From: an uncultured Bacteroidales bacterium
GTDB taxonomy: Bacteria > Bacteroidota > Bacteroidia > Bacteroidales > FEN-979
Direction of reading: 5' to 3'
Assembly: GCA_903903985.1 (NCBI GenBank)
Contig: CAIVAT010000118.1
Span: forward strand, 1-64,000
DNA length: 64,000 bases
Shown here: positions 1 through 14,657 of the stretch, one piece after another
How the letters are laid out: each line of letters starts with the position of its first letter
Numbering within the stretch: position 1 is the first letter of the stretch
The notes under the pieces: generated by a model
Database searches by the model: none
Told to the model about the DNA's origin: nothing
The model's input: only the letters and a program-made list of their open reading frames with translations
Position numbers and translations under genes: made by a program

Positions 1-140
1 AAAAGGGGTTACCAGTCCGCACTCGATCTTTACATGAGAATTTCCCCACAGTTTAATGAACCGCTGATTACGTGGCCCGTACGATCAGTGGTGTGAGAGG
101 CTCTCCCTGCCGGCGATGCCGGTGGGGCAGCCTACTCGAT
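1..140 (+). mobile_element. 3' end of a group II intron (domains V and VI)
   Basis: Positions 58-93 fold as a group II domain V. An outer 9-bp stem pairs ACCGCTGAT with ATCAGTGGT, a two-base CG bulge sits on the 3' side, and an inner stem UACG/CGUA closes a short loop. Next come GTGTGAGAGG, a GC-rich hairpin (about 97-134) that fits domain VI, and the ending CCTACTCGAT, with the candidate branch-point A a few bases from the 3' end. This is the usual tail of bacterial group II introns. The reverse transcriptase gene should lie left of the window. The exact 3' splice junction near 140 is inferred. Confidence 0.72.
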
Positions 141-308
141 TATCCCCGGTGGTTCCGTTTAAAGAGGTTCACAGATGTTTTGTATGGTAATTTCCCGATC
201 AAACATAATAGTGCTGCATGAAATTTGAGATTTTCGGTGATCATAATTTCCAACGATATAAGTAATCATTAATTACTTCCAATTACTGGAAATGAATGTT
301 CCAACCTT

Positions 309-1037: not shown

Positions 1038-1071
1038 GTTGATGTTTCAATTTTTCATTGGTTACAGTATT

Positions 1072-1144
1072 AGCGCCATATTACGTACAAATTAATTATT
1101 CGAAACGTTTTTCATTTTTGTGCCAAAGTTACAATATGGGCTTA
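1072..1144 (-). repeat. Imperfect palindrome, possible degenerate attC-like site
   Basis: Left arm 1072-1087 reads agcgccatattacgta. Right arm 1129-1144 reads gttacaatatgggctt. They are nearly complementary over about 15 bases with a 41-base spacer. It lies 3' of the frameshifted gene at 1165-1517, where an attC site would be expected, but the AACG/CGTT boxes seen in the better sites are absent. The attC reading is weak. Confidence 0.35.
1124..1131 (-). promoter_or_regulatory. Candidate -7 box for the DUF6090 gene
   Basis: On the minus strand this reads TAACTTTG, matching the Bacteroidota -7 consensus TAnnTTTG. It lies 86 bases upstream of the DUF6090 start. No clear -33 TTTG was found at the usual spacing. 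It overlaps the right side of the palindrome. Confidence 0.4.
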
Positions 1145-1164
1145 GTTGATTTGTATGTGGTATG

Positions 1165-1517
1165 TCATTTGATCTTTTTTCTACTTATTTTTAGAAGGTT
1201 ATATCTAAAAGAGGAATTTGGAAAATTTCCATTCAATATGTCTACATTCTCTCTTAATGATTTCGAATAATATTCTAAGGCCTCATCTGTCTTTCTTTCT
1301 GATAAAATTAAACCAACATTTTGCTTTGATGGATCAAGATTCAGCAAATCGCAACGTTTGAAGAAATTAAAATCACATTCAATCGATTTTTTTATGCCAT
1401 TGATTAATTCAGGATCTAATCTTTTCGGTTTTAAAATTTCAATTGAATAGCTTCCATTAAAGCAAATATTGTTTGAAATAAAAAAAGCAAAATTATAAAA
1501 ATGGGAAAACGTAGCAT
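1165..1517 (-). pseudogene. Frameshifted small exported protein (array gene)
   Basis: An ATG at 1517 opens a typical signal peptide (MLRFPIFIILLFLFQTIFA) but stops soon after. About one base out of frame, a good-looking protein sequence continues (CFNGSYSIEILKPKRLDPE and on) for about 95 residues to the stop at 1165. The tail contains an ALEYYSKSL stretch that resembles a TPR-like helix. The simplest reading is a small secreted protein broken by one indel near 1460-1475, inside a T/A-rich run. The ATG begins about 45 bases from the attC-like site at 1561, as expected for a cassette gene. The product is not recognised. Confidence 0.5.
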
Positions 1518-1560
1518 AATATCAGGTATGAATTATTCTTTCGTAGCGTTTCTCATTTTG

Positions 1561-1662
1561 GTTCCCAACGGTTGGCTGATAAAACCTGTGCAGATATTTT
1601 GGGATCGCCCTGGAAATCCCAGGATAGCCGAGCCTGGGTTTTACCGGCAGGTTATGGGTTGC
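1561..1662 (-). repeat. attC-like site S1
   Basis: Read on the minus strand, the site starts CCCATAACCTGCCGGTAAAA and ends GGTTTTATCAGCCAACCGTT followed by GGGA. The ends pair imperfectly, TAAAACC with GGTTTTA and the outer CCCA-AAC boxes with GTTGGG. It begins 5 bases after the stop codon of the gene at 1667, the usual place of attC in a cassette. Confidence 0.5.
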
Positions 1663-1666
1663 ACAT

Positions 1667-2887
1667 TTACTTCTTCACAAACATTGTTACCTCTGTTGCT
1701 TTATTGCTTATTAGTTTTACTACGTAAACTCCTTTTTCGAGTCCACTGATATCGAGTTCCGTAATATCTTTCTTTAAAGGTTGTTGAGAACGTAATTCAC
1801 CTTGAATATTGTAAATTGAAACTACCGTGTTTTCAACAGGGGAATACTTCATGAATCTTATATTTATCTTATCTGATGAGGGGTTTGGATAAGCTGCTAA
1901 CCTTCTGTTTTCTTTTATATCTTCAATGCTTCCGATTATTTCAGATAATCGACGTTTCCAAATGCCATGATAACCTGTGCCGGCAAATAAAGTATCTCCG
2001 ATAATTGCTAAAGACATTGCATTGATGCAGCCGGTATTCATCCAATTTAATCCATAATCATTGGATTTATACACCCCATTGGCAGTCGCAAGAAAGACTG
2101 TCCCGTTGAAAGCGATAAACTTTTGAGGATAATTGTGCCCTTGATCGTTTAAGCCATTGCCTGCTGTCCAGCTGTTACCATTGTCGGTTGAAACATATAC
2201 GTTTCCTGTTCCCATATCACCGTCCGATGCGGCAAATATTGTATGGTAATCTAAACCAAATTTGCGTATCCGGGTATCGATTAGACCCGTGGCAGGATCT
2301 ATAAGTGTCCAAATCGCTCCGTTATTGTTTGATTTATATACACCGGCAACGGTTTGTGAGACAATACCTGATATAATGGTATCCCCGGTGGCAATAACAG
2401 AAGTAGCCTGAACAGTACCCGCCAAACTGATGTTTTCCCAGGTTGTAGCATTGTCCGTGGAATGAAAGATACCACCGGTTCCGCATACATATAAGTCGGT
2501 ATTATTTTTTATCAAATCGAGTACAGGAAAACTTGATGGTAATCCATTATTTTTAACTATCCAGGTATTCCCTTTGTCGGATGACAAATAGACCCCTTGT
2601 CCCCATGTGCCTGCATACAAATATCCTCCATCTGTAATCAAAGGGGAAGCACCTGTTCCTAAATTTGTATTTTTCACCGACCACGTAACTCCATGGTTTG
2701 TTGAAGTAAAGAGTCCTGGGGTCATATCGTAAACATTCCCGGTGCTTGACACGATCATTGTATCATTGATAACAATCATGGATGATGCGTTTCCGTTTGC
2801 TGAATAACCGCCCAATTGTTGCCATTGAGCATTCCCAAGGCTACAAATGCATGCTAAAATTGCAGTCAAAGTAATTTGTTTGTTCAT
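1667..2887 (-). CDS. T9SS-sorted Asp-box (BNR-like) repeat protein
   Basis: This 406-residue exported protein has a signal peptide (residues 1-20, ending GNAQ). Six beta-propeller-type Asp-box motifs follow, of the form S-x-D-x-G-x-T-W (for example STNHGVTWS, SSDKGNTWI, STDNGNSWT), as in sialidase/VPS10/YCF48 folds. The last 75 or so residues are a type A sorting domain: Y-P-N-P at about residue 331, then V-S-I-Y-N-I-Q-G, ending L-E-K-G-V-Y-V-V-K-L. Such domains send proteins through the type IX system to the cell surface. No catalytic motif is visible. It lies between attC-like sites S1 and S2 and shares its architecture with the gene at 5220. Confidence 0.8.
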   Translation of the reverse strand: MNKQITLTAILACICSLGNAQWQQLGGYSANGNASSMIVINDTMIVSSTGNVYDMTPGLFTSTNHGVTWSVKNTNLGTGASPLITDGGYLYAGTWGQGVYLSSDKGNTWIVKNNGLPSSFPVLDLIKNNTDLYVCGTGGIFHSTDNATTWENISLAGTVQATSVIATGDTIISGIVSQTVAGVYKSNNNGAIWTLIDPATGLIDTRIRKFGLDYHTIFAASDGDMGTGNVYVSTDNGNSWTAGNGLNDQGHNYPQKFIAFNGTVFLATANGVYKSNDYGLNWMNTGCINAMSLAIIGDTLFAGTGYHGIWKRRLSEIIGSIEDIKENRRLAAYPNPSSDKINIRFMKYSPVENTVVSIYNIQGELRSQQPLKKDITELDISGLEKGVYVVKLISNKATEVTMFVKK

Positions 2888-2935
2888 AAATTCTTCCTTA
2901 AAAAGTTAGTACTCAGTTTTCCGTTTATAACCTAA

Positions 2936-3024
2936 AACGTTGCAGATAAGCCATGTGCGGTGATCTCTTGATTGTGTTGACAATCCCGGCAGTATGCGGT
3001 ATGGGCTTAATTGCTGTGCCAATG
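2936..3024 (-). repeat. attC-like site S2 (degenerate)
   Basis: Minus-strand arms GCAATTAAGCCCATACCGCA and CCGCACATGGCTTATCTGC are complementary over most of their length. An AACG follows the second arm. The outer boxes are less regular than in S4 or S6. It lies 33 bases after the stop codon of the lipoprotein gene at 3057. Confidence 0.42.
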
Positions 3025-3056
3025 GATCAGGAAAATTCCGGATGAATTGTTATCAA

Positions 3057-3458
3057 TTATCTTCTCATTCCAATTACATTTTGATATTTTGCAAACGGCA
3101 TAACATATATAAATGTGATTTTATCATTGGTTTCAAATTTCCCGGAAAAGCCTAAACCAAGTCCTGAGGAGGTTGGTTTAGACAGTGTGCCATCTTCTCC
3201 AATGATGGCCTCAGCCCATCCGTTTTGAGTATAATATATCTTAATTTGTTTTGCATCTGTTCCCTTGGTGATCATACCAGCGTAATTAAACGCCGTATCA
3301 TAGTGAACGCTGTCCCCACCCGGATAACCAGTATCTTCATTGATGGAAAAAGTGAAATTACCCGTATATCTATCCCGGTAGTCTATATTTTTTTGACAAC
3401 CAGGTGTAAATACAATGAGGATAAAAATAAATACAATTTTTAAACAGTTTGTTGCCAT
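3057..3458 (-). CDS. Small lipoprotein of unknown function
   Basis: This 133-residue protein starts with a lipoprotein signal peptide: a hydrophobic stretch, then F-T-P-G-C at about residues 17-21, where the Cys would be lipidated. The mature part is short, has G/Y/D-rich beta-strand character (YTGNFTFSINEDTGY) and no recognised domain. Similar lone lipoproteins with a YxGxFxF opening are common in Bacteroidota, but I cannot name a family. It sits between S3 and S2 as a single-gene cassette. Confidence 0.65.
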   Translation of the reverse strand: MATNCLKIVFIFILIVFTPGCQKNIDYRDRYTGNFTFSINEDTGYPGGDSVHYDTAFNYAGMITKGTDAKQIKIYYTQNGWAEAIIGEDGTLSKPTSSGLGLGFSGKFETNDKITFIYVMPFAKYQNVIGMRR

Positions 3459-3476
3459 GTGTTTTTTATTTATATC

Positions 3477-3498
3477 CGCTAACGCCGGTTCGTTGGTG
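3477..3498 (-). repeat. Collapsed attC-like palindrome S3
   Basis: On the minus strand this reads CACCAACGAACCGGCGTTAG. Outer boxes AACG and CGTT face each other across only six bases, as if the middle of an attC site had been lost. It separates the DUF6544 remnant from the lipoprotein gene. The assignment is tentative because the element is so short. Confidence 0.3.
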
Positions 3499-3506
3499 AA
3501 AGTTAA

Positions 3507-3812
3507 TTATTCAAATTCAACTTTCTCAATTACGAAATGGACATAATGCAAAACCCCCTCTGATAAATTCCAATATCCATCATAAATCGTATTAATCTTC
3601 AATCCGTTAAAGTCTTTAACCTCGTTGCTTTTACTTACAAACTTTTCCAGCGTCCCCCGTCCATTTCCTCTATCATAATATCTATCTGCCATGAATTTTT
3701 CCAAAGCCCCGTCTGCCCTAAAAAGCAATTGAGCGTTTGCGCTTAAACCTGCATCATTTATAATACATTCAGCAAAATTAGAATCATCCCAATAAATCCT
3801 TTTTAACCGCCA
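3507..3812 (-). pseudogene. C-terminal remnant of a DUF6544 (DUF6920) family protein
   Basis: An open frame of 101 codons starts right after a TAG and has no plausible start; a TTG at 3728 would give only 73 residues. The translation matches the C-terminal half of the DUF6544 family: W-D-D-S near the start, then a D-R-Y-Y-D-R motif, a D-F-N-G-L-K-I-N-T motif and the closing G-Y-W-N-L-S-E-G segment. Full members are about 250-290 residues, so the first 60% is missing. A possible scrap of the missing part lies out of frame at about 3812-3860. This looks like a truncated cassette gene. Confidence 0.55.
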
Positions 3813-3888
3813 CTATGGATTTCATGCATTATGACTTCATGTTGGGTCTCGTTACCCGTTCAGGGGAAGCATTATTTTTTGGAAGACG

Positions 3889-4995
3889 TTAATATAGATT
3901 TTCTTTTTTAAAGGTAAATTTTTTCCCATCCTGCATTTCAATGGTGTAAATGTCCTCTTTTGTCAATAACTGATACATCATCAGTTCACAATAATCTTTA
4001 TATGATTTGCCATTAATTGATTTTACCTTATCACCTGTTTTCACTCCGCTTTTAATAATTTGCTCCGTATAAACCAATGAGTTTACAATCATCGATTCAT
4101 TTAAAATTTTGAAGGAAATGCCAAATGTTTTTTTCTTTTCAGTATTTGCTTTTTTAAATAGTAATTTGCTTTTTGTCCAACTTAAAAAGATCTGATTACG
4201 TCCCCAAAAATCATTGCCAATTTTGTTCTCACCGACAGAAATTGTGTTAAACATAACATTGTGATTTGTAAAATCTAAATTATCAGGGTGAGTAGCAATT
4301 AAAAAAAATGATTCTTTTGATTGTTGGTCATATGAATTTGCACCACTCACCGATGAAATTTCATCATATGATTTTATTATTTCATTTTTAATTTTCCTGT
4401 AGTTCTTCTTATCAATGCCGCTTTCATTTGCTCCACTATCAAATAAAAAATCAATAATGTTATTTCCAATTTTCAAATTAATTCTTGGCCGGAGTTTATT
4501 TGTATAGAAATCTAACGCTGCAAAATCATTAAATCTGTTGGCAGTAACTGAAGTGTCTGTTTTCACTATGTAAAGTTTATCGAAATCGATCAGCCAATCG
4601 AACTGTTTTATAATATCAATGCCAATAGCTCCTTCAAATCCAGAACAATTAAACAATGGATTGTTTGGAAATGTGTAAATCGATTGATTACTTAAATCAC
4701 TATTGCCAATTTTTAATGAATGAACAACAAACTTTGATTGAATTGTCACTTTATTATTTGAATCTTTCAACCTTTTCTTGGTACAAGTGGTTTTATCCAG
4801 ATCGGCTGCCACATCTTCTCTAATAGTAGTTACTTCTGCCCCAGTATCAAACATGAAATAATGTACTTTGCCATTTATTTGGACAGGTATTTTAATTAAG
4901 CCAACTAAATTTTCAAACCGGATTGTATCATGAGTTTGTGCAAATGTGAAACCGTTAATCAAAACTGCCAATAAAAGAAACAAATAATATTTCAT
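3889..4995 (-). CDS. Retropepsin-like aspartic protease with C-terminal PDZ domain
   Basis: This 368-residue exported protein has a signal peptide (1-20, ending FTFAQ). It carries two clan AA aspartyl protease repeats, the first with M-F-D-T-G-A-E-V-T at about residues 48-56 and the second with L-F-D-S-G-A-N-E-S at about 182-190. The two Asp-Thr/Ser-Gly motifs could form an active site within one chain, as in pepsin-type enzymes. Residues about 290-360 look like a PDZ domain (K-T-G-D-K-V-K-S-I-N-G). A periplasmic or surface protease is likely; the substrate is unknown. A -7 box lies about 80 bases upstream. No clear attC-like site follows its stop. Confidence 0.78.
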   Translation of the reverse strand: MKYYLFLLLAVLINGFTFAQTHDTIRFENLVGLIKIPVQINGKVHYFMFDTGAEVTTIREDVAADLDKTTCTKKRLKDSNNKVTIQSKFVVHSLKIGNSDLSNQSIYTFPNNPLFNCSGFEGAIGIDIIKQFDWLIDFDKLYIVKTDTSVTANRFNDFAALDFYTNKLRPRINLKIGNNIIDFLFDSGANESGIDKKNYRKIKNEIIKSYDEISSVSGANSYDQQSKESFFLIATHPDNLDFTNHNVMFNTISVGENKIGNDFWGRNQIFLSWTKSKLLFKKANTEKKKTFGISFKILNESMIVNSLVYTEQIIKSGVKTGDKVKSINGKSYKDYCELMMYQLLTKEDIYTIEMQDGKKFTFKKENLY

Positions 4996-5077
4996 TTTTG
5001 TAATTATTATAACTCACTGATTCTTTGATGGTATCTGATTTTTCAGTTGAAATATTCTTGTTGGGGTTTGCTTTATC

Positions 5078-5085
5078 CAAAGGTA
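5078..5085 (-). promoter_or_regulatory. Candidate -7 box for the aspartic protease gene
   Basis: The minus strand reads TACCTTTG, a match to TAnnTTTG, 83 bases upstream of the start at 4995 and inside the space between attC-like site S4 and the gene. The cassette may therefore carry its own promoter. No convincing -33 box. Confidence 0.4.
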
Positions 5086-5126
5086 AAAAACTTATTTATC
5101 GAATAGCAGAGGTATTAATCGGTTTG

Positions 5127-5222
5127 GTGCTAACGCACAATTGCAACTGCAACAAATGATAACCTTCACAAAGCCTCTGAATGCAGATTTTCTTGCGGCT
5201 GCAATTTCGTTAGCATGCGTTA
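5127..5222 (-). repeat. attC-like site S4 (one of the two best)
   Basis: Read on the minus strand, the outer boxes are TGCTAACG (5208-5215) and CGTTAGCA (5128-5135), perfectly complementary over 8 bases. The inner boxes are TTGCAGCCGC (5195-5204) and GCAGTTGCAA (5141-5150), pairing at TTGCA/TGCAA. The spacing between outer and inner boxes differs on the two sides, as in true attC sites, which keep unpaired bases there. The middle, about 45 bases, is variable. The stop codon of the upstream gene overlaps its edge. Confidence 0.65.
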
Positions 5223-6566
5223 ATTTTTTATGAACTTAAGCACTTTCACTTCTGTTTCTGATTGCAACTTTATAAAATATACCCCAGCTTCCAGCCTGCT
5301 GACATCAAGCACTGCACTGTTCTGTTTAATGATTTGGCAAGTCATCATTCGTTTCCCTACAAAATTGAATACAGATATATCGGTTTTATCAGAAGTCCCA
5401 TATATATTAAAAACAGTAATCTGATCGTTTGTCGGGTTTGGAAACACTTTAGTTTTTGCGTTATTCACTGAAATGTTACTAGAACCGACTGCAGGACCTC
5501 CCCACTTATAAATTGCAGGTGAATTGGCTTCTGCAGGTTTTCCAAGACCTGCCCAACCATGCGTTTGATCAAAGAAAGTGACAGAATTGTAAAAGTTGAC
5601 TGAATCAATAATTGTCCATGAATTTCCATAATCCAGGGTATACATTGAGCCCGGTTGTGTTACCTGGGTGTCAGCCACTGCAATATAAGTTCCGGCCTGT
5701 CCTGGAACGGAGGTTAAATTTTCAATATAACGGGGAGGAGCAGAAAGATTGTTCCAGGTAAGACCCCCGTCGGAAGTGCCTGCAAGCATTGTCGGTGCTA
5801 TAGTGGGTGCGTTGGTAAAGGATGATCCCACGATGCCATGCAGGGAATCTGTAAACGCTATGGTATGAATGCAGCGGTTAGGGTACAACGAAGAATTGTA
5901 AATACTCCAGGTAATGCCTTTATCTGTTGAAGTGAATACTCTCCCCTTGGATGTTGGAACCCATGCATGGTTCGACTGAATTGCAATATCATTGGTTCCG
6001 CTGCACACATAAAAAAACTCACCAGGCAGCATGGCCGGGGTCGTTCTTGCCTTCCATGTACTCCCGCTGTCATCAGAGGTTGCCACCATCTGTCCCCAGC
6101 CAAATGATAAAAAATTGTTGCTGTCAAATGCTTTGATAAACATACCAATGCTGTTGGCGACTTGTTCCTGTACTTTGTAATTCCAGGAGGAACCCCCGTC
6201 TGTTGTATAAAACAAAAGAAAATTCGAAGAACTGTCCATCCCGGTAAAATAGACAGTGTTTTCGTCAACGACCATTAAATCCATTGGAATGCTACCTGTT
6301 GCAATTGTCACAGTATCAATACTCCAATTATCCCCACCATCACTACTCTTTAAGATACAAACAAGAGTTGTGGGAGAAATTGGGAAGCCAACCATCCACT
6401 GCAAATAATCAGAGGCCAGGGCATAGATGACGGAATTATTGGCCGCCTGCATCTGAACTACGCCATAACCTTCGGGAAGCAAACCAATTGATTTTGGAAC
6501 CCACTGGCTGAAAACGGATCCGTTTAGCAGTATTAAAGCTGCAATCAGAAGTAATGATTTTTTCAT
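5220..6566 (-). CDS. T9SS-sorted Asp-box (BNR-like) repeat protein
   Basis: The protein is 448 residues from the chosen start at 6566. That start gives a clean signal peptide (MKKSLLLIAALILLNGSVFS). An upstream in-frame ATG at 6596 would add 10 polar residues. Six Asp-box motifs follow (SSDGGDNWS, TTDGGSSWN, SDDSGSTWK, STDKGITWS, TSDGGLTWN, TLDYGNSWT), suggesting a beta-propeller. The C-terminus is a T9SS type A sorting domain with V-F-P-N-P-T-N and L-E-A-G-V-Y-F-I-K-L. Its stop touches S4. No enzymatic residues are recognisable; adhesion or polymer binding is possible. Confidence 0.8.
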   Translation of the reverse strand: MKKSLLLIAALILLNGSVFSQWVPKSIGLLPEGYGVVQMQAANNSVIYALASDYLQWMVGFPISPTTLVCILKSSDGGDNWSIDTVTIATGSIPMDLMVVDENTVYFTGMDSSSNFLLFYTTDGGSSWNYKVQEQVANSIGMFIKAFDSNNFLSFGWGQMVATSDDSGSTWKARTTPAMLPGEFFYVCSGTNDIAIQSNHAWVPTSKGRVFTSTDKGITWSIYNSSLYPNRCIHTIAFTDSLHGIVGSSFTNAPTIAPTMLAGTSDGGLTWNNLSAPPRYIENLTSVPGQAGTYIAVADTQVTQPGSMYTLDYGNSWTIIDSVNFYNSVTFFDQTHGWAGLGKPAEANSPAIYKWGGPAVGSSNISVNNAKTKVFPNPTNDQITVFNIYGTSDKTDISVFNFVGKRMMTCQIIKQNSAVLDVSRLEAGVYFIKLQSETEVKVLKFIKN

Positions 6567-6626
6567 AGCTTGCATTTTAGGGTTGTTCATATTCACTTGC
6601 TTTTATTAAATGCATGTAGGCAATTG

Positions 6627-7148
6627 TTAATTTTGTGTTTTACCAATTTCTTTTATCCTGATTAATTCATTAGAAACTGGTTCTTCAACAAAAATTTCGA
6701 CTTTGGGGTGATATTTTCGATTTTTTGGAATAATGACGGTAGAATCGATATCCACCGTGTGATGTTTTATCTTGAGTTTGGTAAACCACCAACGGTTCAG
6801 TTCAATAAAAACTTCATCGTTTAACTCAACGTCAAACTTCTTAAAAAACCTGCTAAACGTGCTTTCACTTGCCATGCCTTTGGTCCAACCAAACATCTCA
6901 CTGACAACTTTATCATGCCGAAGCAGTCCCGCATGGGTCAATCGGCGTGCACCAGGGATAACACTAACCAGAAAGCCCTCGATGATATCCACAGGATCAT
7001 ATCCCCTGTTAGAGCCTGGCTGTGGCAAGGGCAGGGAAGTGATCACATCCTTGAGGCCGCTGTTCTGATAGAAGTTCTTTACGGTTGTCAGACCTCCAAA
7101 TGGTGTGATCGTGCGATCAGTATATCTGATGTCAAAATCTGCATCCAT
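6627..7148 (-). pseudogene. Truncated IS1380-family transposase
   Basis: The first 140 or so residues match IS1380-type DDE transposases: I-R-Y-T-D-R-T-I-T-P-F-G-G near the start, L-P-L-P-Q-P-G-S-N-R-G-Y at about 40-51, D-K-V-V-S-E-M-F-G-W at about 79-88, and D-I-D-S-T-V holding the first catalytic Asp. Intact family members are about 420-450 residues. Here the match stops right after D-I-D-S-T-V, and 34 unrelated residues run to a stop, so the other catalytic residues are gone. It is inactive and interrupts the array between the serine hydrolase and the T9SS gene. Confidence 0.7.
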
Positions 7149-7294
7149 TGGGTGTTAGCTGAAATGAGCCGTGAAATTAAGCAAATCAGGCATTAGACAA
7201 AAATGTTGTATTTTTATTGAATGGATCAGGATTATTCTCAATGTATACTAATTCCCGCTCAATTGGGCATAGGTGTTGGTAGGCGGCGTTTTTT

Positions 7295-8989
7295 TTATTT
7301 CACAATTTGCCTGTCATCAAGTCTTTCACCTGGCAAAGTCATCCCGTCAAATGTTGAAGTTAATGACTCTGCTTTTCCATCTTTGTTTAAAATGAATGAG
7401 ATCCTGCTTGCAACTTCCAATGCAAAATAATCTAATTCACTTGTGGGCAGCAACTCGTATTTAGGCATATTCGGCGTTAATACAAATAATTTGTCATTCT
7501 CTTTTACTATCTCAATTACGTAATTATTTCCAAAATCATACTTGCCGGTTAATTTATCAAAAAAGTCCGGATTTATTTTTACCTGCATTTCATCTTTTAG
7601 TCTGTTTGCTTCAAAAGACACACCATCTTGATATTGAATTAAGCGCTCTGCAATTGATGACGTATCTGATACAAATATAATCCTTGCATTCATGGTCTTG
7701 AAATAAAACTCTTTTGCAGAAATGGGTGTCAATGGACTTGGGGCCTGACCTGTAACTTGTCCAAATAATTGTTTGCCTTTCAATGTTACCAGCATGGCCA
7801 TGCCATGACCATAATTATACCTGCCCACATATTTTTCCAAAATGTCTTCACTTACAGTTGTGTCATTTAATCCAATATTATTTTTCTCCATTTTATCTGA
7901 AAGTATAAATTCAGATATTGCCTGACCATTTGATATTGGATTAATTCCCTGGGGCGTTGGAAGCGAGTTACACAACACGCAAATGGTAAGTTTATTTTCC
8001 GGTTGGCGTTCAAGATAAGAATAGAAACCTGAGGAAACACCGGAATGTTGAATAAATTTGAGCCCCCTGTTCATACTTAAGAACCAACCAAACCCATAGT
8101 CAACCTTGCCACCGTTATTTAATACCGACTGTGTGAAAGCTGTTTTTAATGTGGCATCCGATAGTACTTTTCCATTAAAAACAGCTTCGTTCCATTTAAA
8201 CAGATCCTCTGCAGTGGAATAGATACTCCCAACCCCCAGAGCCCACGACATTTCCTGAAAGTCTGCTTTTTTTACTGCTTCACCATTCATGCTGTATCCC
8301 TGAGCCTCGTATCCCAATACTTTACTTGTTTCGTAAATTCCTGTATTGTTCATTCCCAGGGGTTTAAAGAATGTTTCGTTAAGATATTCACTTAAAGTTT
8401 TACCTGAAAGTTGCGCAACGATATATCCTAAAATAAAATAACCAGAATTATTGTATTGGTAATGTTCTCCCGGATTAAAATCGTATGGAACATTTTCAAT
8501 AATATCAAGTAATGCTTGAGGAGAAATCGGTTTGGTTACATCCAAATCAGGTTGAAAATCATAATCATGGATTCCGGAGGTATGCGTAAGAAGTTGATAA
8601 ATGGTTACTTCGTTGCTTCGTGGAAAATCGGGGATGTACTTTGATAATTTATCCTCTGTCTTTATCATTCCTTCTTCCTGCAGTTTGAGAATTGCAACAG
8701 CAGTAAATTGTTTTGAAATAGAGCCTATTTTAAACTTTGTATCAGGCGTAACCGGAATTTTCTTTTCAATATCGGCATACCCAAATCCTTTTTGGTAAAC
8801 AATATCTCCGTTTTGGGCAACCAATACCGAAGCTCCCGGCATTGTACCCATTTTTAAATTTTTAAATATGTTGGAAATGCAAGTATCTAAGCCGGGTATT
8901 TTATTTTTTCCCTGAGCTTGCAGATTAATACTAACTATAAGGTTAATCAAAATGATTACAGACGAAATAGGTCCAATTTTTTTCCCCAT
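7295..8989 (-). CDS. Serine hydrolase, class C beta-lactamase-like (PBP4*/esterase family)
   Basis: This 564-residue protein has an N-terminal hydrophobic export signal (about 7-26). The catalytic domain shows the three beta-lactamase/penicillin-binding signatures: S-I-S-K at 90-93 (nucleophile Ser90), Y-N-N at 179-181, and H-S-G at 315-317, which replaces K-T-G as in class C-like peptidases and esterases. The last 190 or so residues form an added beta-rich domain often found in these proteins. Likely roles are D-Ala-D-Ala or small-peptide/ester hydrolysis in the periplasm; antibiotic resistance should not be assumed. In the array it lies between S6 and the transposase fragment. Confidence 0.8.
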   Translation of the reverse strand: MGKKIGPISSVIILINLIVSINLQAQGKNKIPGLDTCISNIFKNLKMGTMPGASVLVAQNGDIVYQKGFGYADIEKKIPVTPDTKFKIGSISKQFTAVAILKLQEEGMIKTEDKLSKYIPDFPRSNEVTIYQLLTHTSGIHDYDFQPDLDVTKPISPQALLDIIENVPYDFNPGEHYQYNNSGYFILGYIVAQLSGKTLSEYLNETFFKPLGMNNTGIYETSKVLGYEAQGYSMNGEAVKKADFQEMSWALGVGSIYSTAEDLFKWNEAVFNGKVLSDATLKTAFTQSVLNNGGKVDYGFGWFLSMNRGLKFIQHSGVSSGFYSYLERQPENKLTICVLCNSLPTPQGINPISNGQAISEFILSDKMEKNNIGLNDTTVSEDILEKYVGRYNYGHGMAMLVTLKGKQLFGQVTGQAPSPLTPISAKEFYFKTMNARIIFVSDTSSIAERLIQYQDGVSFEANRLKDEMQVKINPDFFDKLTGKYDFGNNYVIEIVKENDKLFVLTPNMPKYELLPTSELDYFALEVASRISFILNKDGKAESLTSTFDGMTLPGERLDDRQIVK

Positions 8990-9053
8990 AATTACTACCT
9001 ATTTAAATTAACTTTTTCGCATTATCAATTTTTTCTGAAGAATTAACATGATA

Positions 9054-9150
9054 CCGCATAACGCCTGTTTGCAACCACAGAAAAGGGAAACCCATTAAAA
9101 GCCTCACCATTGCATGTTTTTTGGCGGGTGCAAGTTCGTTATGCCCAGTG
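9054..9150 (-). repeat. attC-like site S6 (one of the two best)
   Basis: On the minus strand the outer boxes are GCATAACG (9137-9144) and CGTTATGC (9056-9063), perfectly complementary. The inner boxes contain CTTGCACCCG and GGTTGCAAAC, pairing through TTGCA/TGCAA with unequal spacing to the outer boxes. The total length is about 90 bases with a variable centre. It begins 28 bases after the DUF1801 gene stop. This closely resembles chromosomal integron attC sites, which commonly end in GTTATGC. Confidence 0.65.
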
Positions 9151-9178
9151 CTTTCCTACACAAGAATAAAATTAGAAA

Positions 9179-9571
9179 TCATTTCATATATCCAAGTTTT
9201 TCCCAAGCAATAATGCCCATCTCAAGAAGTATCCTTAGTTCGATTTCGTTAATTTGTTCTTCTTTATTAAAATGGAAACATGTTTTTCCCTTTAAAAATT
9301 TATTCAACGAAGGTGCAACCTCTTTCATTTTTGAATCCATATATATGGGGAAGAAATGCAATGTTACACTGTCCCTTCGCTGGGCTATTTGGGCGAAAAA
9401 CATTCCAGGAACCATTTTTTTATTATATCCATATGGAACTGGCTTGTTGCCAATAATCTCAAATGAACTATTTGGTGAATCAATACTGACTACCATGGGT
9501 GGAGTATATTTTTCCAGGTTCATTTTCAATTTGTCGAAAATTATTTTCCTCGATTCTTCTGTGATGGGCAT
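9179..9571 (-). CDS. DUF1801-like small protein
   Basis: This 130-residue cytoplasmic protein has no signal or membrane segment. The P-V-P-Y-G-Y core and the C-terminal G-K-T-C-F-H-F-N-K followed by helices (INEIELRILLEMG) match the DUF1801/YdhG-like fold, in which a G-K-x-x-I/F-x-F stretch recurs. Relatives include iron-chaperone-like and YjbR-like proteins, but the biochemical role is unknown. DUF1801 proteins are frequent integron cassette cargo, which fits its place between S7 and S6. Confidence 0.6.
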   Translation of the reverse strand: MPITEESRKIIFDKLKMNLEKYTPPMVVSIDSPNSSFEIIGNKPVPYGYNKKMVPGMFFAQIAQRRDSVTLHFFPIYMDSKMKEVAPSLNKFLKGKTCFHFNKEEQINEIELRILLEMGIIAWEKLGYMK

Positions 9572-9631
9572 ATCTGTTTTTTGTTTTTACAGTGAAAAGT
9601 TCATGAACTTTGCAGTATTGTCATCGCATTG

Positions 9632-9781
9632 GGCATAACGCCCCGCTTGCAGTCTCAGTGCGGGCATTAGCAGGTTGATATTCGAATTTCGTCCCATGTT
9701 TAGCAGCTCCCACCACTCTCCTCCCCACAATGCCCCACAATGCCCCGCATTGCTCGGCTGCAGGCTCGTTGGCAGCAGGGC
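9632..9781 (-). repeat. attC-like site S7 (long)
   Basis: The minus strand starts CTGCCAACGAGCCTGCAGCC and ends GACTGCAAGCGGGGCGTTAT followed by GCCC. Outer AACG/CGTT and inner CTGCAG/CTGCAAG boxes pair imperfectly. The site is about 150 bases, longer than the others, because the centre holds a short repeat (atgccccacaatgcccc) and an extra stretch. Similar long variable centres are known in chromosomal attC sites. Confidence 0.5.
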
Positions 9782-9790
9782 TTTATTCAT

Positions 9791-9889
9791 TCATTCACCA
9801 TACCTTCCAATAATTTTGGCAATTTCTTTTTCAATTTCTGATTCAAACGCAATATGTTGTAATATCTTAAAGTTGACTAATATAGTTTC
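9791..9889 (-). pseudogene. Possible 32-codon gene remnant in the array
   Basis: Between S7 and the YdeI-like gene, an open frame of 32 codons follows a TGA and ends at 9791 with K-E-I-A-K-I-I-G-R-Y-G-E. The composition looks like real protein (amphipathic helix), but no start codon fits and no family is recognised. It could be the tail of a cassette gene removed by deletion. Chance is also possible at this length. Confidence 0.25.
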
Positions 9890-9901
9890 TCATCGAATTA
9901 A

Positions 9902-10480
9902 TTAATCATTTAATCCCTTACCATTGAGAATTTGCTGCGTACATTTTTCAACCCTTGATTCCCTGGTTTTGGACTGTTTGGGTGCAGAAAAATAAAGGAT
10001 GTATGCTCTTTGCCGCCCTGGTGTCAAAGCTTCAAAGGCAGTTTTCAAGGAAGGGATTTTATCGAATTTGTTTTGAAACTCTTCAGGAATTATAAATTCT
10101 GTATTCTTTTTAAAATTCACTTCCAAACCAGCTTTTTCAATTTCGATGGCTTCATTTATATAACCTATCAGGATGTGTTTCAACTCAACTATTTCTCCAA
10201 TATTGGTGAACCTTACCTGGCGTGATGCCTGCACATTTTCTGTTTGCTGGATCAGAATACCAAAGGTATCTTTTAATAAGGCCCCCTTGAAAAACAGTAT
10301 TGCACAGTATTCCTTAAATCCATGTATTAAAACTATGTTTCTTTTCTGAAACGTGTAACAAGGAACACCCCACTTAAATTCTTCGGTCAGCTGACAATCA
10401 AGAATGATCATTCTCAATTTCTCAAATTCATCCTGCCACTTTTTGGCTCTGCTTAAATATATATCAACCTTTGGATTCAT
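9902..10480 (-). CDS. YdeI/OmpD-associated, DUF1801-type protein
   Basis: This is a 192-residue protein from the chosen start at 10480 (M-N-P-K-V-D-I-Y-L); an upstream ATG at 10510 would add ten atypical residues. The N-terminal half is a DUF1801 domain (K-W-G-V-P-C-Y-T-F at about 54-62, then I-H-G-F-K-E-Y-C-A-I-L-F-F-K-G). The C-terminal half (about 125-190) is the YdeI/OmpD-associated helical region with F-E-A-L-T-P-G-R-Q-R-A-Y and S-R-V-E-K-C motifs. It is cytoplasmic with unknown biochemistry; relatives are linked to stress or peptide resistance. It is a single-gene cassette bounded by S8 upstream and S7 downstream. Confidence 0.75.
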   Translation of the reverse strand: MNPKVDIYLSRAKKWQDEFEKLRMIILDCQLTEEFKWGVPCYTFQKRNIVLIHGFKEYCAILFFKGALLKDTFGILIQQTENVQASRQVRFTNIGEIVELKHILIGYINEAIEIEKAGLEVNFKKNTEFIIPEEFQNKFDKIPSLKTAFEALTPGRQRAYILYFSAPKQSKTRESRVEKCTQQILNGKGLND

Positions 10481-10540
10481 TCTATTCTTTGTTATTATCT
10501 GATATTCCATTTATAAGAGTTTTGTTGTCTTTTAATGTTA

Positions 10541-10636
10541 CTGCCAACGTATGGCTTGCAACTGCAGCAAAAATAAACATTTGCCAAGCCCTGTTAATGC
10601 TGGTTTTATTGCAGTTGAAAGGTTTTTGGGCACAGT
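10541..10636 (-). repeat. attC-like site S8
   Basis: On the minus strand the site runs from GTGCCCAAAAACC to ACGTTGGCAG. The inner boxes CAACTGCA (plus 10610-10617) and TGCAGTTG (plus 10559-10566) are perfectly complementary over 8 bases. The outer boxes GCCCAAA and CGTTGGC pair less well. It begins 7 bases after the stop codon of the lipoprotein gene at 10643. Confidence 0.55.
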
Positions 10637-10642
10637 GATTTT

Positions 10643-11068
10643 TTATTCATATTGCAGGTTGCCACTATACAATGTAGTATCAAATTCTTCTGAATCTAAA
10701 TAAGCTTTCACTATTGTTTCTGAATGAAATGGTTTTGTAAGATCAGTCCCAAATTGCATTGGTGCAAAACTTATGTTTATGGTATCAGAAAATGCGCCAC
10801 CTGGTTTAATCAGAAGTGGAAAATCTCCTCTTTTTCCGTCGCCATAAGTGAGAACGGTCAATCGTTCAGCATTGGTTTTTCCTCTTATAAAAAGCATCAC
10901 ATGGCCAAAATTCATCCGTGGAGCATGGTGCATTGTGGTAAACCATAAACAACCATATATTTTCAATGATAATCTTTTAGAATTATGATTGCTGACTCGT
11001 GAATTGTTAGTTTCAACGCAACATACCAATGCTACCACCAAAAGTAAGTAAACTACTGATTTTTTCAT
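10643..11068 (-). CDS. Small lipoprotein of unknown function
   Basis: The protein is 141 residues from the chosen start at 11068, where M-K-K-S-V-V-Y-L-L-L opens a signal peptide with a Cys pair (A-L-V-C-C) fit for lipidation. The longer frame from 11128 would translate through the attC-like boundary S9, so it is unlikely. The body contains a G-C-L-W-F-T-T-M-H-H-A-P-R motif and short beta strands; no family is recognised. It is the first cassette gene after the recombinase remnant. Confidence 0.6.
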   Translation of the reverse strand: MKKSVVYLLLVVALVCCVETNNSRVSNHNSKRLSLKIYGCLWFTTMHHAPRMNFGHVMLFIRGKTNAERLTVLTYGDGKRGDFPLLIKPGGAFSDTINISFAPMQFGTDLTKPFHSETIVKAYLDSEEFDTTLYSGNLQYE

Positions 11069-11090
11069 TTCAAAATGGATAATTGCATTG

Positions 11091-11130
11091 TGCCCAACGA
11101 TTAAGTATCCGGTATTGCTGATAGGCAACC
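11091..11130 (-). repeat. Half attC-like or attI-like boundary S9
   Basis: The minus strand carries CGTTGGGC (plus 11092-11099), an exact fit to the integron core box GTTRRRY. It is preceded by GGTTGCC and a small CAGCAATACCGG stem region. No full partner arm was found, so it is either the 3' half of a decayed attC or a recombination site next to the recombinase remnant. Confidence 0.4.
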
Positions 11131-11222
11131 TGTAGTCGTGTTCTGAATATCAACAAGATAGTGCATATATGCACAAAGATACTAAATAACTTTTCCTGAT
11201 TCTGCATGATTATATATTTTTT

Positions 11223-11443
11223 TTAGGGCAGTAAATTATCCGGTGGGATCCTTATCTGATCCTACACCTTCGTGGTAATATGGGCGTAAATCTGCGTGGT
11301 TTTCGGACTGGAATGACCCAGCATTTCCAGGATGTACCGGAAGTTGGTGTTGTGCTCAAACCAGTGATTTCAAAAGTGTGGCGTAATGGTTGAATCGTAA
11401 TCCTGCCCTTCCTGCCTTTACCCTGTGAAATCCTGATCAGCAT
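11223..11443 (-). pseudogene. Ruined tyrosine recombinase (integrase-like) C-terminus
   Basis: Translation gives three recognisable blocks of a Xer/IntI-type recombinase. The strand after box I, M-L-I-R-I-S-Q-G-K-G-R-K-G-R, is joined directly to box II, Q-P-L-R-H-T-F. In a second frame comes the tail E-H-N-T-N-F-R-Y-I-L-E-M-L-G-H-S-S and P-K-T-T-Q-I-Y-A-H, with the catalytic Tyr. A TAG then precedes D-Q-I-R-I-P-P-D-N-L, which matches the normal family ending. At least three lesions are visible: deletion of the stretch between GKGRK and box II, a frameshift after R-H-T-F, and a late stop. It lies at the 5' end of the cassette array, on the same strand as the cassettes. Confidence 0.7.
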
Positions 11444-11656
11444 GCGTTAGGAGTCAATGGCAAATGATTCACGTTTTCCGCAGTGAAATAATTTATAACG
11501 CTTAATCCGTTTCAATTACAAAGGTCATTCACCCCGCTGCCCTTTCTTTTGAAAAATACTTTAAACCGGGTGCAACCTTTTGAACACTTCTGCTGTCAAT
11601 TAAAATAACTGTATCTACAAATCGTCACGTGTCACGTCTTTTAACACATTGATCTC

Positions 11657-12310
11657 ATGGCCCGTACAAAAAACAATTGCATTACATACGGCTCATCCGG
11701 CAAGATGGGCCATGTTGTATTTACCGTCGATGGAAGAATGCGCCCGAAACCCGATATCTCCCGAAGGGTATGGACACAACCTCAGAAGCTGCACCTCGAA
11801 CGGGTGGAAGAGTCAAAGAGGTATGGCCGATGGGCAATCTGCGACCCGGAGTTGAATGAATTTTACGCAAGGAAAGCAGCGGACAAACATGGTTTGGGAG
11901 CCTGGCATATGGCCATCAGCGACTATTTCCATCCGCCGGAGATCATGAGCGCCGACTTCAGGAATGTCAACCGCACAAAAGGAAGGAACATAATCATCTG
12001 TGCAACCGATAATTTTGAAGTTAAAAAGGTGATGGTCTCTTTCATCTCGCCGGCATCAGAAATCCTCGAAAACGGCCATGCTGACCGGGAATCGGGTCAC
12101 TTCGCCTGGAATTATCGGCTGAAGTCTGATATTGGATTTGTTCCGGGTCTTTCTGTGTTCATCAGGGCAATGGATGTTGCGGGGAATATCACCATGGTAA
12201 CCCTTACCTGGCCGTTTGATTGTCAAAATTTGGTCAATTTCGCATTGCCGAATGTGCTGCAATCAGGAAAGAAGAGGCTTAAAAGCCAGCTGAGGATCTG
12301 GAACGGCTGA
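11657..12310 (+). CDS. Conserved Bacteroidota protein of unknown function
   Basis: This 217-residue protein has no signal peptide or membrane helix. The N-terminus (S-S-G-K-M-G-H-V-V-F) and the central R-K-A-A-D-K-H-G-L-G-A-W-H-M-A-I-S-D-Y-F segment recall a family of uncharacterised proteins seen singly in Bacteroidota genomes. The second half has beta character (N-R-T-K-G-R-N-I-I-I-C-A-T-D-N-F) and may be Ig-like. No catalytic residues can be named. It is flanked by spaces of about 200 and 290 bases, so it is probably monocistronic. The first plus-strand gene after the array, it may mark the array's edge. Confidence 0.6.
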   Translation: MARTKNNCITYGSSGKMGHVVFTVDGRMRPKPDISRRVWTQPQKLHLERVEESKRYGRWAICDPELNEFYARKAADKHGLGAWHMAISDYFHPPEIMSADFRNVNRTKGRNIIICATDNFEVKKVMVSFISPASEILENGHADRESGHFAWNYRLKSDIGFVPGLSVFIRAMDVAGNITMVTLTWPFDCQNLVNFALPNVLQSGKKRLKSQLRIWNG

Positions 12311-12599: not shown

Positions 12600-14657
12600 A
12601 TGATCAACCAGGCACTCCTGAATCCCAAAAGCATTGTTGTTGTTGGCGGTTCCAATGATGTTCAGAAACCGGGCGGGGCGGTGCTCCGCAACCTGATCGA
12701 AGGGAATTTCAAAGGCAATCTCTATGTTACCAATCTAAAGGAATCCATGGTCCAGGGAATAAAAAGTTTCCAGGACCCGGCCCAGCTGCCGGAGGTGGAC
12801 CTGGCCATCCTTGCCATTGCTGCTAAATACATTCCTGATACCGTGCAATTGCTGGTGAGCCGGAAAAATACCCGCGGATTTATCATTCTTTCGGCAGGAT
12901 TCAGTGAGGAAAACCATGCAGGGAAGCTCCTTGAGGAGCAGGTGGTGGAAACCATCAGCGCGGCCGGGGGATCTTTGATCGGCCCCAATTGCATCGGGGT
13001 GCTCACGCCTGTTTACCATGGCGTATTCACCAAACCAATTCCCACGCTGGATCCCAAAGGCTGTGACTTTATTTCCGGATCCGGCGCCACCGCGGTCTTC
13101 ATCATGGAGGCCGGTATTCCCAACGGGCTTACTTTTTCACAGGTTTTTTCCGTCGGAAACAGCGCCCAGCTTGGTGTTGAGGAAATCCTGGCGCATCTCG
13201 ATGAAAGTTTCGACCCGGTGACCAGTTCCCGGATCAAATTGCTGTATATTGAAACAATATCAAAACCGCAGATGCTGTTAAAGCATGCCGCTTCGCTTAT
13301 ACGCAAAGGGTGCTGCATCGCTGCAGTGAAGGCTGGATCGTCTGAAGCCGGCAGTCGTGCGGCCTCATCGCATACGGGTGCATTGGCAAGTCCCGACGAA
13401 GCTGTAAGTGCGCTCTTTCGCAAAGCAGGCATTGTGCGTTGCAACGGCCGGGAAGAATTGATCAGCGTGGCTTCCGTATTTACCTTCCCGCAACTGAAAG
13501 GCGACAACCTGGCCATCATCACGCATGCTGGCGGCCCTGCCGTGATGCTCACTGATGCTTTGTCAAATGCCGGAATGCATGTTCCGCATATTGACAACCC
13601 TGCATCGGGTGATCTCCTGGCCCAATTGTATCCCGGTTCTTCCGTTGGCAACCCGATCGACTTCCTTGCTACCGGTACGGCAGAACAACTGGGAACCATC
13701 ATTGATTATACCGACCGGTATTTTAGCGAGGTTGACGGAATGGCAGTGATTTTCGGAACACCCGGACTGACGCCCGTATTCGATGTATATGAGCTGCTGG
13801 ATCGAAAGATGAAATCGTCAGGAAAACCGGTTTACCCCATCCTTCCATCTGTTCTCACGGCACGGGATGAGGTCAGTGACTTTGTTTCAAGGGGGAATGT
13901 ATTTTTCCCTGATGAGGTGGTATTTGGCAATGCGGTGGCGAAAGTATATCATACCCAAAAGCCGGCCCCGGCTGAACCGGAGCTGCCACGGGTTGACCTG
14001 GTGAAGATCCGTACCATTATTGATCAATCGCCCGATGGTTATCTTCCTCCGGAAGCCATCCAGGGACTCATGGATGCATGCGGAATACCAAGGGCGGGCG
14101 AAGCTGTGGTGACAACGGTTGATGATGCTGTGAGGTCAGCCGGAAGACTGGGTTTTCCCGTGGTGATGAAGGTTGTTGGCCCGGTGCATAAATCGGATGT
14201 GGGGGGCGTTGTATTGAATGTAAACAATGAAAACAAGGTAAGTAATGAATTTGAGCGGATGATGGGGATCAAAGACACAACAGCCATTCTTATCCAACCC
14301 ATGCTTTCAGGGATTGAACTTTTCATGGGGGCCAAATTTGAACCTGGTTTTGGGTACATTATCCTTTGCGGGTTGGGAGGTATCTTTATCGAAGTGCTGA
14401 AAGATATTGCTTCGGGATTATCCCCCCTTACGATGGATGAGTCCAGGGCCATGATCCGCAGCCTGAAAAGCTACAGGATTATCCAGGGCGTTCGCGGCCA
14501 GCAGGGAGTCAATGAAGAGATGTTTGCTGATATCATGCTCCGGCTTTCGGCTCTTCTGACCGCCGCACCGGAGATCGTCGAACTCGATTTCAACCCACTG
14601 CTGGGGTCACCTGATAAAGTGGTTGCAGTGGATGCAAGGATCTGTTTGAAAAAGTAG
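12600..14657 (+). CDS. Acetate-CoA ligase (ADP-forming), alpha-beta fusion
   Basis: This 685-residue protein probably makes acetate plus ATP from acetyl-CoA, ADP and phosphate during fermentation, or runs in reverse. Domains in order are a CoA-binding Rossmann domain (V-V-V-G-G-S-N at 13-19), two succinyl-CoA-ligase-like domains with the phosphorylated His258 in S-H-T-G-A-L, then an ATP-grasp domain from about residue 480 (F-P-V-V-M-K-V-V-G and H-K-S-D-V-G-G-V). The length is normal for the fused form; related acyl-CoA substrates are possible. It is transcribed alone and converges on the rhomboid gene. Confidence 0.88.
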   Translation: MINQALLNPKSIVVVGGSNDVQKPGGAVLRNLIEGNFKGNLYVTNLKESMVQGIKSFQDPAQLPEVDLAILAIAAKYIPDTVQLLVSRKNTRGFIILSAGFSEENHAGKLLEEQVVETISAAGGSLIGPNCIGVLTPVYHGVFTKPIPTLDPKGCDFISGSGATAVFIMEAGIPNGLTFSQVFSVGNSAQLGVEEILAHLDESFDPVTSSRIKLLYIETISKPQMLLKHAASLIRKGCCIAAVKAGSSEAGSRAASSHTGALASPDEAVSALFRKAGIVRCNGREELISVASVFTFPQLKGDNLAIITHAGGPAVMLTDALSNAGMHVPHIDNPASGDLLAQLYPGSSVGNPIDFLATGTAEQLGTIIDYTDRYFSEVDGMAVIFGTPGLTPVFDVYELLDRKMKSSGKPVYPILPSVLTARDEVSDFVSRGNVFFPDEVVFGNAVAKVYHTQKPAPAEPELPRVDLVKIRTIIDQSPDGYLPPEAIQGLMDACGIPRAGEAVVTTVDDAVRSAGRLGFPVVMKVVGPVHKSDVGGVVLNVNNENKVSNEFERMMGIKDTTAILIQPMLSGIELFMGAKFEPGFGYIILCGLGGIFIEVLKDIASGLSPLTMDESRAMIRSLKSYRIIQGVRGQQGVNEEMFADIMLRLSALLTAAPEIVELDFNPLLGSPDKVVAVDARICLKK

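Follow-up and report, generated by a model that had tools for sequence, protein, structure and literature searches.

Which recombinase could have gathered a one-strand run of genes and hairpin sites in a Bacteroidales chromosome is the question raised by the stretch of DNA considered here, positions 1-64000 of contig C118 (the window; GenBank CAIVAT010000118.1) in the 5.2-Mb draft genome of an uncultured Bacteroidales bacterium of the FEN-979 lineage. A sequence-only reading of this stretch had proposed the relic of a cassette-collecting system, possibly served by a distinct recombinase lineage; comparison with relatives supports that proposal, and the recombinase is distinct from the canonical integron integrase, IntI. 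That the stretch holds the remains of an integron-type array and its cassettes is near certain. With a probability of roughly 0.8, we further interpret the window as an eroded integron-type array, probably the work of an integrase without the IntI-specific additional domain (I2), for which HARP-like domains are predicted to stand in. Like arrangements recur in other Bacteroidota.

The array in the window

All array genes recognised between 309 and 11128 lie on the minus strand, as the sequence-only reading had it; the two genes of the flank, at 11657 and 12600, lie on the plus strand. The ruined tyrosine recombinase that had been placed at the 5' end is indeed there, as a remnant at 11232-11458 on the minus strand, spread over two frames and interrupted by three stops. 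The far end of the array is outside view because the contig begins at window position 1. The features on which the argument turns are as follows.

11393..11458, minus strand: recombinase relic, box-I piece in the other frame, one stop (tblastn)
11232..11390, minus strand: recombinase relic, C-terminal piece, two in-frame stops (tblastn)
11087..11098, minus strand: G^TT junction between the attI position and cassette 1, GTTGGGCACAAT, with a 9-mer complementary to the R'' flank of attC 1
10643..11128, minus strand: cassette 1 gene, 161 aa from the longest start, a later ATG being likelier; no Pfam family
10545..10628, minus strand: attC 1, 84-nt class, mutated R'' core (model R1, 41.8 bits, E 1.2e-10)
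9902..10510, minus strand: cassette 2 gene, DUF1801 + OmdA/YdeI-like
9636..9771, minus strand: attC 2, 127-nt class (model R2, 83.6 bits, E 3.1e-19)
9179..9571, minus strand: cassette 3 gene, 130 aa, no Pfam family
9059..9141, minus strand: attC 3, 84-nt class (model R1, 35.1 bits, E 1.6e-8)
5131..5212, minus strand: attC of the gene at 5220-6596, 84-nt class (model R1, 39.0 bits, E 9.1e-10)

Covarying hairpins at gene ends

The attC-like sites were located with two covariance models, R1 (11 sites of ~84 nt) and R2 (12 sites of ~127 nt), built from relatives only, with no window sequence; a regex-based site list contained false sites, and only reviewed sites entered the models. On the 64-kb window R1 gives three matches up to E 10 (10545-10628, 5131-5212 and 9059-9141), and R2 gives a single site, 9636-9771, which it also matches as a mirror image on the opposite strand. 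All four model sites lie inside the array, on the gene strand and at gene 3' ends. Of the palindromes that the sequence-only reading had placed at gene 3' ends, these four sites are recovered by relative-trained models, and S0, S1, S2, S3 and S9, which came without coordinates, are not. A pattern derived from two of the window sites has no match in the 5.2-Mb genome other than these two sites, and the reversed pattern has none. An Rfam search of the whole window returned nothing at gathering score.

Both site families recur in arrays of relatives. In a survey of 61 genomes at E 0.001 with stricter filters, R2 sites were found in 28 and R1 sites in 26 genomes, together covering 31 of the 37 same-family genomes (the window's own included); neither was found in the 24 genomes of other families, which carry site-like palindromes of differing sequence unseen by R1 and R2 (e.g. 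L047 and L048 of genome G060). The description of the locus as a relic therefore holds for this window, but was too modest for sites so common in the family. The palindromes also covary, as had been expected of genuine sites: both partners vary in 17 of the 24 stem pairs of the long class and in 14 of the 16 pairs of the short class, over 67 and 39 distinct aligned sites respectively. None of 500 shuffles came as high, and slid versions came nowhere near; the alignments were fitted to the models and are biased toward structure, a bias that the slid controls answer in part only. The cassette ends in relatives thus carry covarying hairpins with conserved YAAC/GTTR cores.

Palindromes that form hairpins at gene 3' ends might also be terminators, repetitive extragenic palindromic (REP) elements or other gene-end hairpins with no mobile meaning. 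Against this stand the conserved YAAC/GTTR ends and models that score one strand far over the other, and, above all, the boundaries of the units themselves.

Cassette signature and boundaries

In an integron cassette the bases after G^TT are the other half of the cassette's own site, and so complement the bases before its R'' core. This signature was found in the relatives' arrays, where 35 of 50 adjacent site pairs (21 arrays) match their own R'' at 6 or more of 8 bases, versus 2.4% of non-own pairings; in a permutation test, 0 of 20,000 permutations reached the observed sum. A second sample gave 7 of 18 own pairs versus 4 of 306, and in all seven matching pairs the cassette start carries A at position 8 where the R'' reverse complement has G. 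Units consisting of a gene and its own attC, with a 5' end complementary to the R'' flank of that attC, are accordingly present.

Two pairs in the window are perfect when the position-8 mismatch is allowed, namely junction 11098 with the site ending at 10628 and junction 9639 with the site ending at 9141. The 9-mer at junction 11098 matches the R'' flank of attC 1 at 8 of 9 bases exactly and at 9 of 9 with the A/G mismatch, and the junction (11087..11098) lies 134 nt past the last matched residue of the recombinase relic. The R'' flank of attC 3 (GCACTGGGCATAACG) likewise complements the start of cassette 3 (CGTTATGCCCAATGC at 9640), and the middle cassette (10545 to 9771) shows a partial fit by eye. 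The window contains three perfect 9-mers, versus 0.14 expected from Markov sequence and none in the reversed control; one of them (9308 to 8050) coincides with no site and is ascribed to chance. At 8 of 9 bases the window is no better than the reversed control (7 versus 8 matches).

The edges of one duplication agree with these boundaries. Genome G286 (locus L262) carries one cassette twice in tandem, 99.4% identical over 670 nt; identity begins at CGTT, and at their right edge the copies first differ immediately past GTT. Ten bases beyond that right edge agree although the copies part there, because the next cassette starts alike. The complementarity of cassette starts to their own site's flank, which terminators lack, and the parting of a tandem unit at GTT refute the gene-end hairpin explanation in the main, and we regard it as very improbable.

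Two observations on the sites may be added. The outer box regularly shows an A-against-G (A.C) mismatch at position 8, immediately past the seven paired bases, in L031, L033, L059, L065, L262 and others, and in the window at 11098 and 9639; it is perhaps a recognition mark. Behind the recombinase of L067, one array contains two copies of a ~410-nt unit, 95% identical and with two palindromes each, perhaps a gene-less cassette pair.

A recombinase without the I2 region

The relic in the window is closest, among ten query proteins compared by tblastn, to the recombinase at the same locus in genome G002 (L041; 60% over 53 aa, E 1.8e-16, and 68% over 22 aa), versus 3e-7 for the host XerD-like protein L002 and 0.37 for the canonical IntI L015. 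The sequence between its C-terminal and box-I pieces is gone, and the I2-region part of the gene is lost.

In relatives, where the gene can be read, the recombinases lack I2. Five array recombinases score 201-232 bits against the IntI family TIGR02249, in two stretches, versus a cut-off of 265; one of the five passes NF040815 ('site-specific tyrosine recombinase/integron integrase', 'XerA'). The linker from the GKGxKDR box to HxLRH measures 58-59 aa in most measurable proteins and 55-65 in the others, versus 100 in IntI1 and the IntI of G003, so that ~41 residues of the IntI-specific region are missing; alignment to PDB 2a3v falls into two pieces and skips 43 residues. In a quick tree three IntIs group together (support 100) and lie outside a clade made up of 31 Bacteroidota rows (support 82). 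The latter holds most array recombinases; L048, L095, L068 and L077, which also have sites, fall outside it.

Since the array recombinases are related to Xer (NF040815 'XerA') and there are known cases of Xer-borne gene modules, one might suppose that the modules are exchanged by host XerC/XerD at dif-like sites. Yet host XerC- and XerD-like genes are separate, and the array recombinases stand on their own branch of the tree, apart from them, a placement subject to long-branch caution. Moreover, dif sites are short, unlike the 84-127-nt hairpins clustered here behind a dedicated recombinase. This makes exchange by the host enzymes highly improbable.

A second possibility is that a canonical IntI acts on the sites in trans and that the I2-less recombinase is merely a neighbour. 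Canonical IntI does occur in the order, with a protein over the family cut-off in 2 of the 61 relatives; the sites resemble normal attC, and IntI1 used eight of nine archaeal attC of varied kinds in the experiments covered by the relevant passages of PMC9668308. However, an IntI over cut-off was found in only one of the 31 site-bearing genomes (G003), these being drafts from which genes may be missing. The IntI of G003 (L015) clears the cut-off in one stretch; that of G043 (L014) has HTFRY at the expected HxLRH and has lost its C-terminus. Neither a narrow pattern scan nor both models found a site near either gene, and no array was seen beside either, so both were dropped as candidates for array-bearing integrases. 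The I2-less recombinase, for its part, repeatedly stands upstream of the array, on the same strand, with the first-cassette junction behind it. Action of IntI in trans is on these grounds improbable, and the I2-less integrase is likely the engine of the arrays.

Intact arrays in relatives

Complete layouts survive elsewhere. In G030 (L031) an attI-like junction comes after the recombinase, and beyond it lie gene-plus-site units on the strand of the recombinase, with twelve sites found by R1 and R2 together; G019 (L033) has a similar layout with seven R2 sites. Counted over 37 of 80 fetched named loci, the 201 kb downstream of the recombinase hold 54 YAAC...GTTR palindromes able to form a stem, compared with 13 in the 300 kb upstream and 16 in 541 kb of shuffled controls. 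Among these loci L063 is the same contig as L037 and was nevertheless counted, both here and among the HARP-like proteins below. The contrast shrinks at lower thresholds (72 downstream and 36 upstream at 20; 106 and 68 at 18). With a strict stem detector almost none of the sites were picked up (5 downstream and 0 upstream in 40 loci), and a local detector was used instead; with an earlier detector, shuffled sequence gave about as many hits as real sequence in several loci. Hosts with at least two downstream sites include Arundinibacter roseus, Flavobacterium aciduliphilum, Algibacter onchidii and metagenome-assembled genomes of Cyclobacterium and Cytophagales.

In the second sample, seven of ten HARP-type recombinases have at least two palindromes behind them, with 28 in 121 kb downstream (3 after shuffling) and 1 in 9 kb upstream; a motif filter had found a HARP-recombinase frame in 10 of the 20 fetched loci, and the other 10 are uncounted. 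The single-contig genomes G119, G286 and G258 carry five palindromes each and G171 three. Three loci of this sample (L256, L260 and L270) have no palindromes behind the recombinase, and the palindromes of L255, L269 and L272 are without a convincing cassette signature.

An attI-like junction is found beside the integrase gene in some of these loci. A first site was detectable in 30 of 59 loci, and in 12 of these 30 the junction matches the R'' flank fully with the position-8 A/G allowed, at 34-625 nt past the recombinase stop in L037, L038, L039, L050, L053, L055, L059, L062, L083 and L086, and farther off in L051 (986 nt) and L065 (1112 nt). The junction of L031, at 244 nt, matches at 7 of 9 bases, and the remaining loci are weaker. 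A promoter-like motif, TAnnTTYG, lies 15-90 nt past the recombinase stop in 18 of 58 loci, with a shuffled mean of 3.4 and with 2-5 of 50-54 in windows farther down.

The chromosomal locus can also be followed between species. Beside the acetyl-CoA-ligase gene (12600-14657 in the window) a recombinase of this family stands in unchanged geometry in G001, G002, G003 and G015; it is open in G002 and G003 and carries a stop in G001 and G015. The fetched stretches at the locus in G004, G005, G006, G008, G009 and G011, all of the same genus, hold no recombinase and have a membrane-protein gene instead; the contig of G007 ends inside the gene, G010 gave no match, and further same-genus genomes were left out. 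At a tblastn threshold of 1e-5, the arrays of G003 and G015 yield no match to any of ten proteins from the window array, although the flank gene is 83% and 79% identical to that of the window; distant matches elsewhere are to a flank gene of G001 and to genes with Por tails and BNR-like repeats in the array of G026. Gene order is therefore not fixed among relatives: other cassettes or no integron at this locus, together with the tandem copy described above, speak for cassette gain and loss between species, the level at which, rather than between strains, the comparison was made.

Elements of a different kind accompany some arrays. IS91-like elements lie 84-109 bp from the R'' side of attC in L056 (2224-3141), L204 (2035-2949), L205 (3189-4103) and L206 (2759-3607), and they may target attC. 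They also hold a tyrosine recombinase of ~300 aa, and those of L056 and L205 carry what we take to be a Zn-finger transposase. L054, L056, L204, L205 and L206 (plus) had been entertained as classical-orientation integrases, look like parts of such elements and were set aside. Genes for group-II-intron-type reverse transcriptases, recognised by eye, lie in or near arrays at L204 204-1070 and L206 9826-10992, opposite to the cassette strand. Known attC-targeting introns are likewise opposite to the cassette strand.

The example of the four IS91-like elements, with their different tyrosine recombinase so close to attC, lends some credit to the idea that the I2-less recombinase is itself a separate mobile element that prefers insertion beside cassette arrays. 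The HARP-type recombinases, however, point toward the array, and past their stop lies an attI-like junction, in some cases together with a promoter-like motif; they occupy one chromosomal locus in G000, G001, G002, G003 and G015; and no transposase gene was noticed directly beside them in loci with listed frames, though no systematic search was made. We accordingly give this idea a low probability.

HARP-like domains at the N-terminus

One to three N-terminal HARP-like domains were recognised in 47 of 59 recombinases examined (L080 and L110, which have internal stops, were dropped). The HARP reading was first made by eye and tested against Pfam afterwards. A profile of the unit matches the HARP domain of SMARCAL1 (PDB 4o66) at E 1.3e-5, with the next match at 0.13, so that homology to HARP is found at the profile level. 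The Pfam HARP model finds 12 of 21 units at E<=1 (best 9.5e-5) and none of the full-length proteins at E 0.001; the scores shown, 11.5-21.2 bits, stay under the PF07443 gathering cut-off of 25, which is why we call the units 'HARP-like'. A model of the unit is a compact strand-helix-strand-strand-helix arrangement with a modest fold match to 4o66. From these sequences we infer that the HARP-like domain may replace I2.

Decay of the window array

The remaining parts of the array are as follows.

7295..8989, minus strand: cassette 4 gene, a beta-lactamase-family serine hydrolase with DUF3471
6627..7148, minus strand: transposase fragment, N-terminal part of DDE_Tnp_1_4, between array genes
5220..6596, minus strand: array gene, BNR-like repeats + Por secretion tail
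3889..4995, minus strand: array gene, aspartyl-protease-like, preceded by GTTAGCACC; own attC eroded
3507..3728, minus strand: gene fragment, C-terminal part of DUF6920/DUF6544
3459..3506, minus strand: possible attC scar, core boxes CAACG + CGTTAGC nearly touching, middle lost (from sequence only)
3057..3458, minus strand: array gene, 133 aa, no Pfam family
1667..2887, minus strand: array gene, BNR-like repeats + Por secretion tail

Gene ends other than those with the four model sites look eroded: models R1 and R2 recognise no attC for the cassette 4 gene, and neither matches the scar at 3459-3506. The transposase fragment at 6627-7148 is likely a step in this decay. Homologues of the cassette 2 gene occur in 11 of the 61 genomes; among 11 homologue loci scanned (the window's own copy, L213, excluded) a model site was found in the fetched flanks of L214 only, and a generic palindrome detector found no site in nine of them, so that little can be said on cassette mobility.

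Two further observations concern this genome. Positions 11902-13381 of L011, on contig C119, hold a second integron remnant, in which the C-terminal 70 aa of a like recombinase are followed by a gene and then an attC (R2, E 2.5e-17), all on one strand. The GC-rich contig end at window 1-160 resembles, by eye, the 3' end of a group II intron; an Rfam search of 1-1500 gave this candidate no support.

A proposed mechanism and its significance

The favoured explanation, an array built by an I2-less integrase with HARP-like domains, implies the following course of events. The recombinase would be made from a gene transcribed in the direction of its attI-like junction, located in relatives past the stop of that gene. 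A circular cassette, consisting of one gene and one attC-like site, would be captured at attI by exchange at G^TT, a position suggested by the cassette boundaries and by the one tandem duplication with its edges at GTT. The attC is predicted to be used as a folded single strand because of the covarying hairpin, the asymmetric spacers and the self-complementary cassette ends. The hairpin may be held by a structure-specific DNA-binding HARP-like module, where canonical IntI uses I2. A promoter immediately past the recombinase gene may drive the cassette genes, as the enrichment of the motif there suggests. In the window's genome the recombinase broke, upon which exchange likely stopped and the sites would have decayed.

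More tentatively, and at somewhat less than even odds, the Bacteroidota may possess a phylum-wide second solution to cassette capture, in which an integrase that never had I2 would hold the folded single strand of attC by means of HARP-type domains that bind forks, one to three per protein, the decisive step in the evolution of integrons having been taken twice. The I2 helix is described, in the passages of PMC7790495 that deal with it, as an innovation for single-stranded attC recombination by integrases. A large set of arrays served by I2-less recombinases would make the need for I2 testable, as either dispensable or replaced by another module. They may also explain why profile-based tools have reported few Bacteroidota integrons, to go by the relevant portion of PMC9024848, and they point to a large unread pool of cassette genes. 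The published attC models, as set out in the pertinent part of PMC8352920, cover 11 taxa, with none for Bacteroidota. Searches of the open PMC literature (subscription papers and preprints being outside its scope) turned up no description of cassette arrays with an I2-less HARP-bearing recombinase, which is not proof of novelty.

Comparison with known systems

With integrons as generally understood, the arrays share their one-direction layout of mostly single-gene cassettes, YAAC...GTTR hairpins, cassette starts that complement their own R'', an attI-like junction and GTT boundaries. They differ in a recombinase that has no I2 region, falls under the IntI cut-off and mostly bears HARP-like N-termini, and in the position-8 A/G mismatch outside the core. 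In Treponema integrons, as described in parts of PMC3607928, the recombinase is likewise transcribed toward attI, along the cassette direction, but the recombinases are filed there as IntI. Within the Bacteroidetes/Chlorobi group, Salinibacter ruber M1 has a complete integron, which was found by integrase profiles and presumably encodes a canonical IntI; in an earlier study, Bacteroidetes had yielded nothing beyond In0, integrases lacking cassettes (both from PMC9024848).

At the level of single proteins, VchIntIA bound to attC (PDB 2a3v) has the extra region that is missing in the array recombinases. Archaeal XerA (5hxy, 4a8e) is also without it, but is not known to have cassette arrays. SMARCAL1 (PDB 4o66) shares with the array recombinases the HARP similarity detected by profile, but there HARP borders an SNF2 motor, whereas here the HARP-like unit is fused to a tyrosine recombinase.

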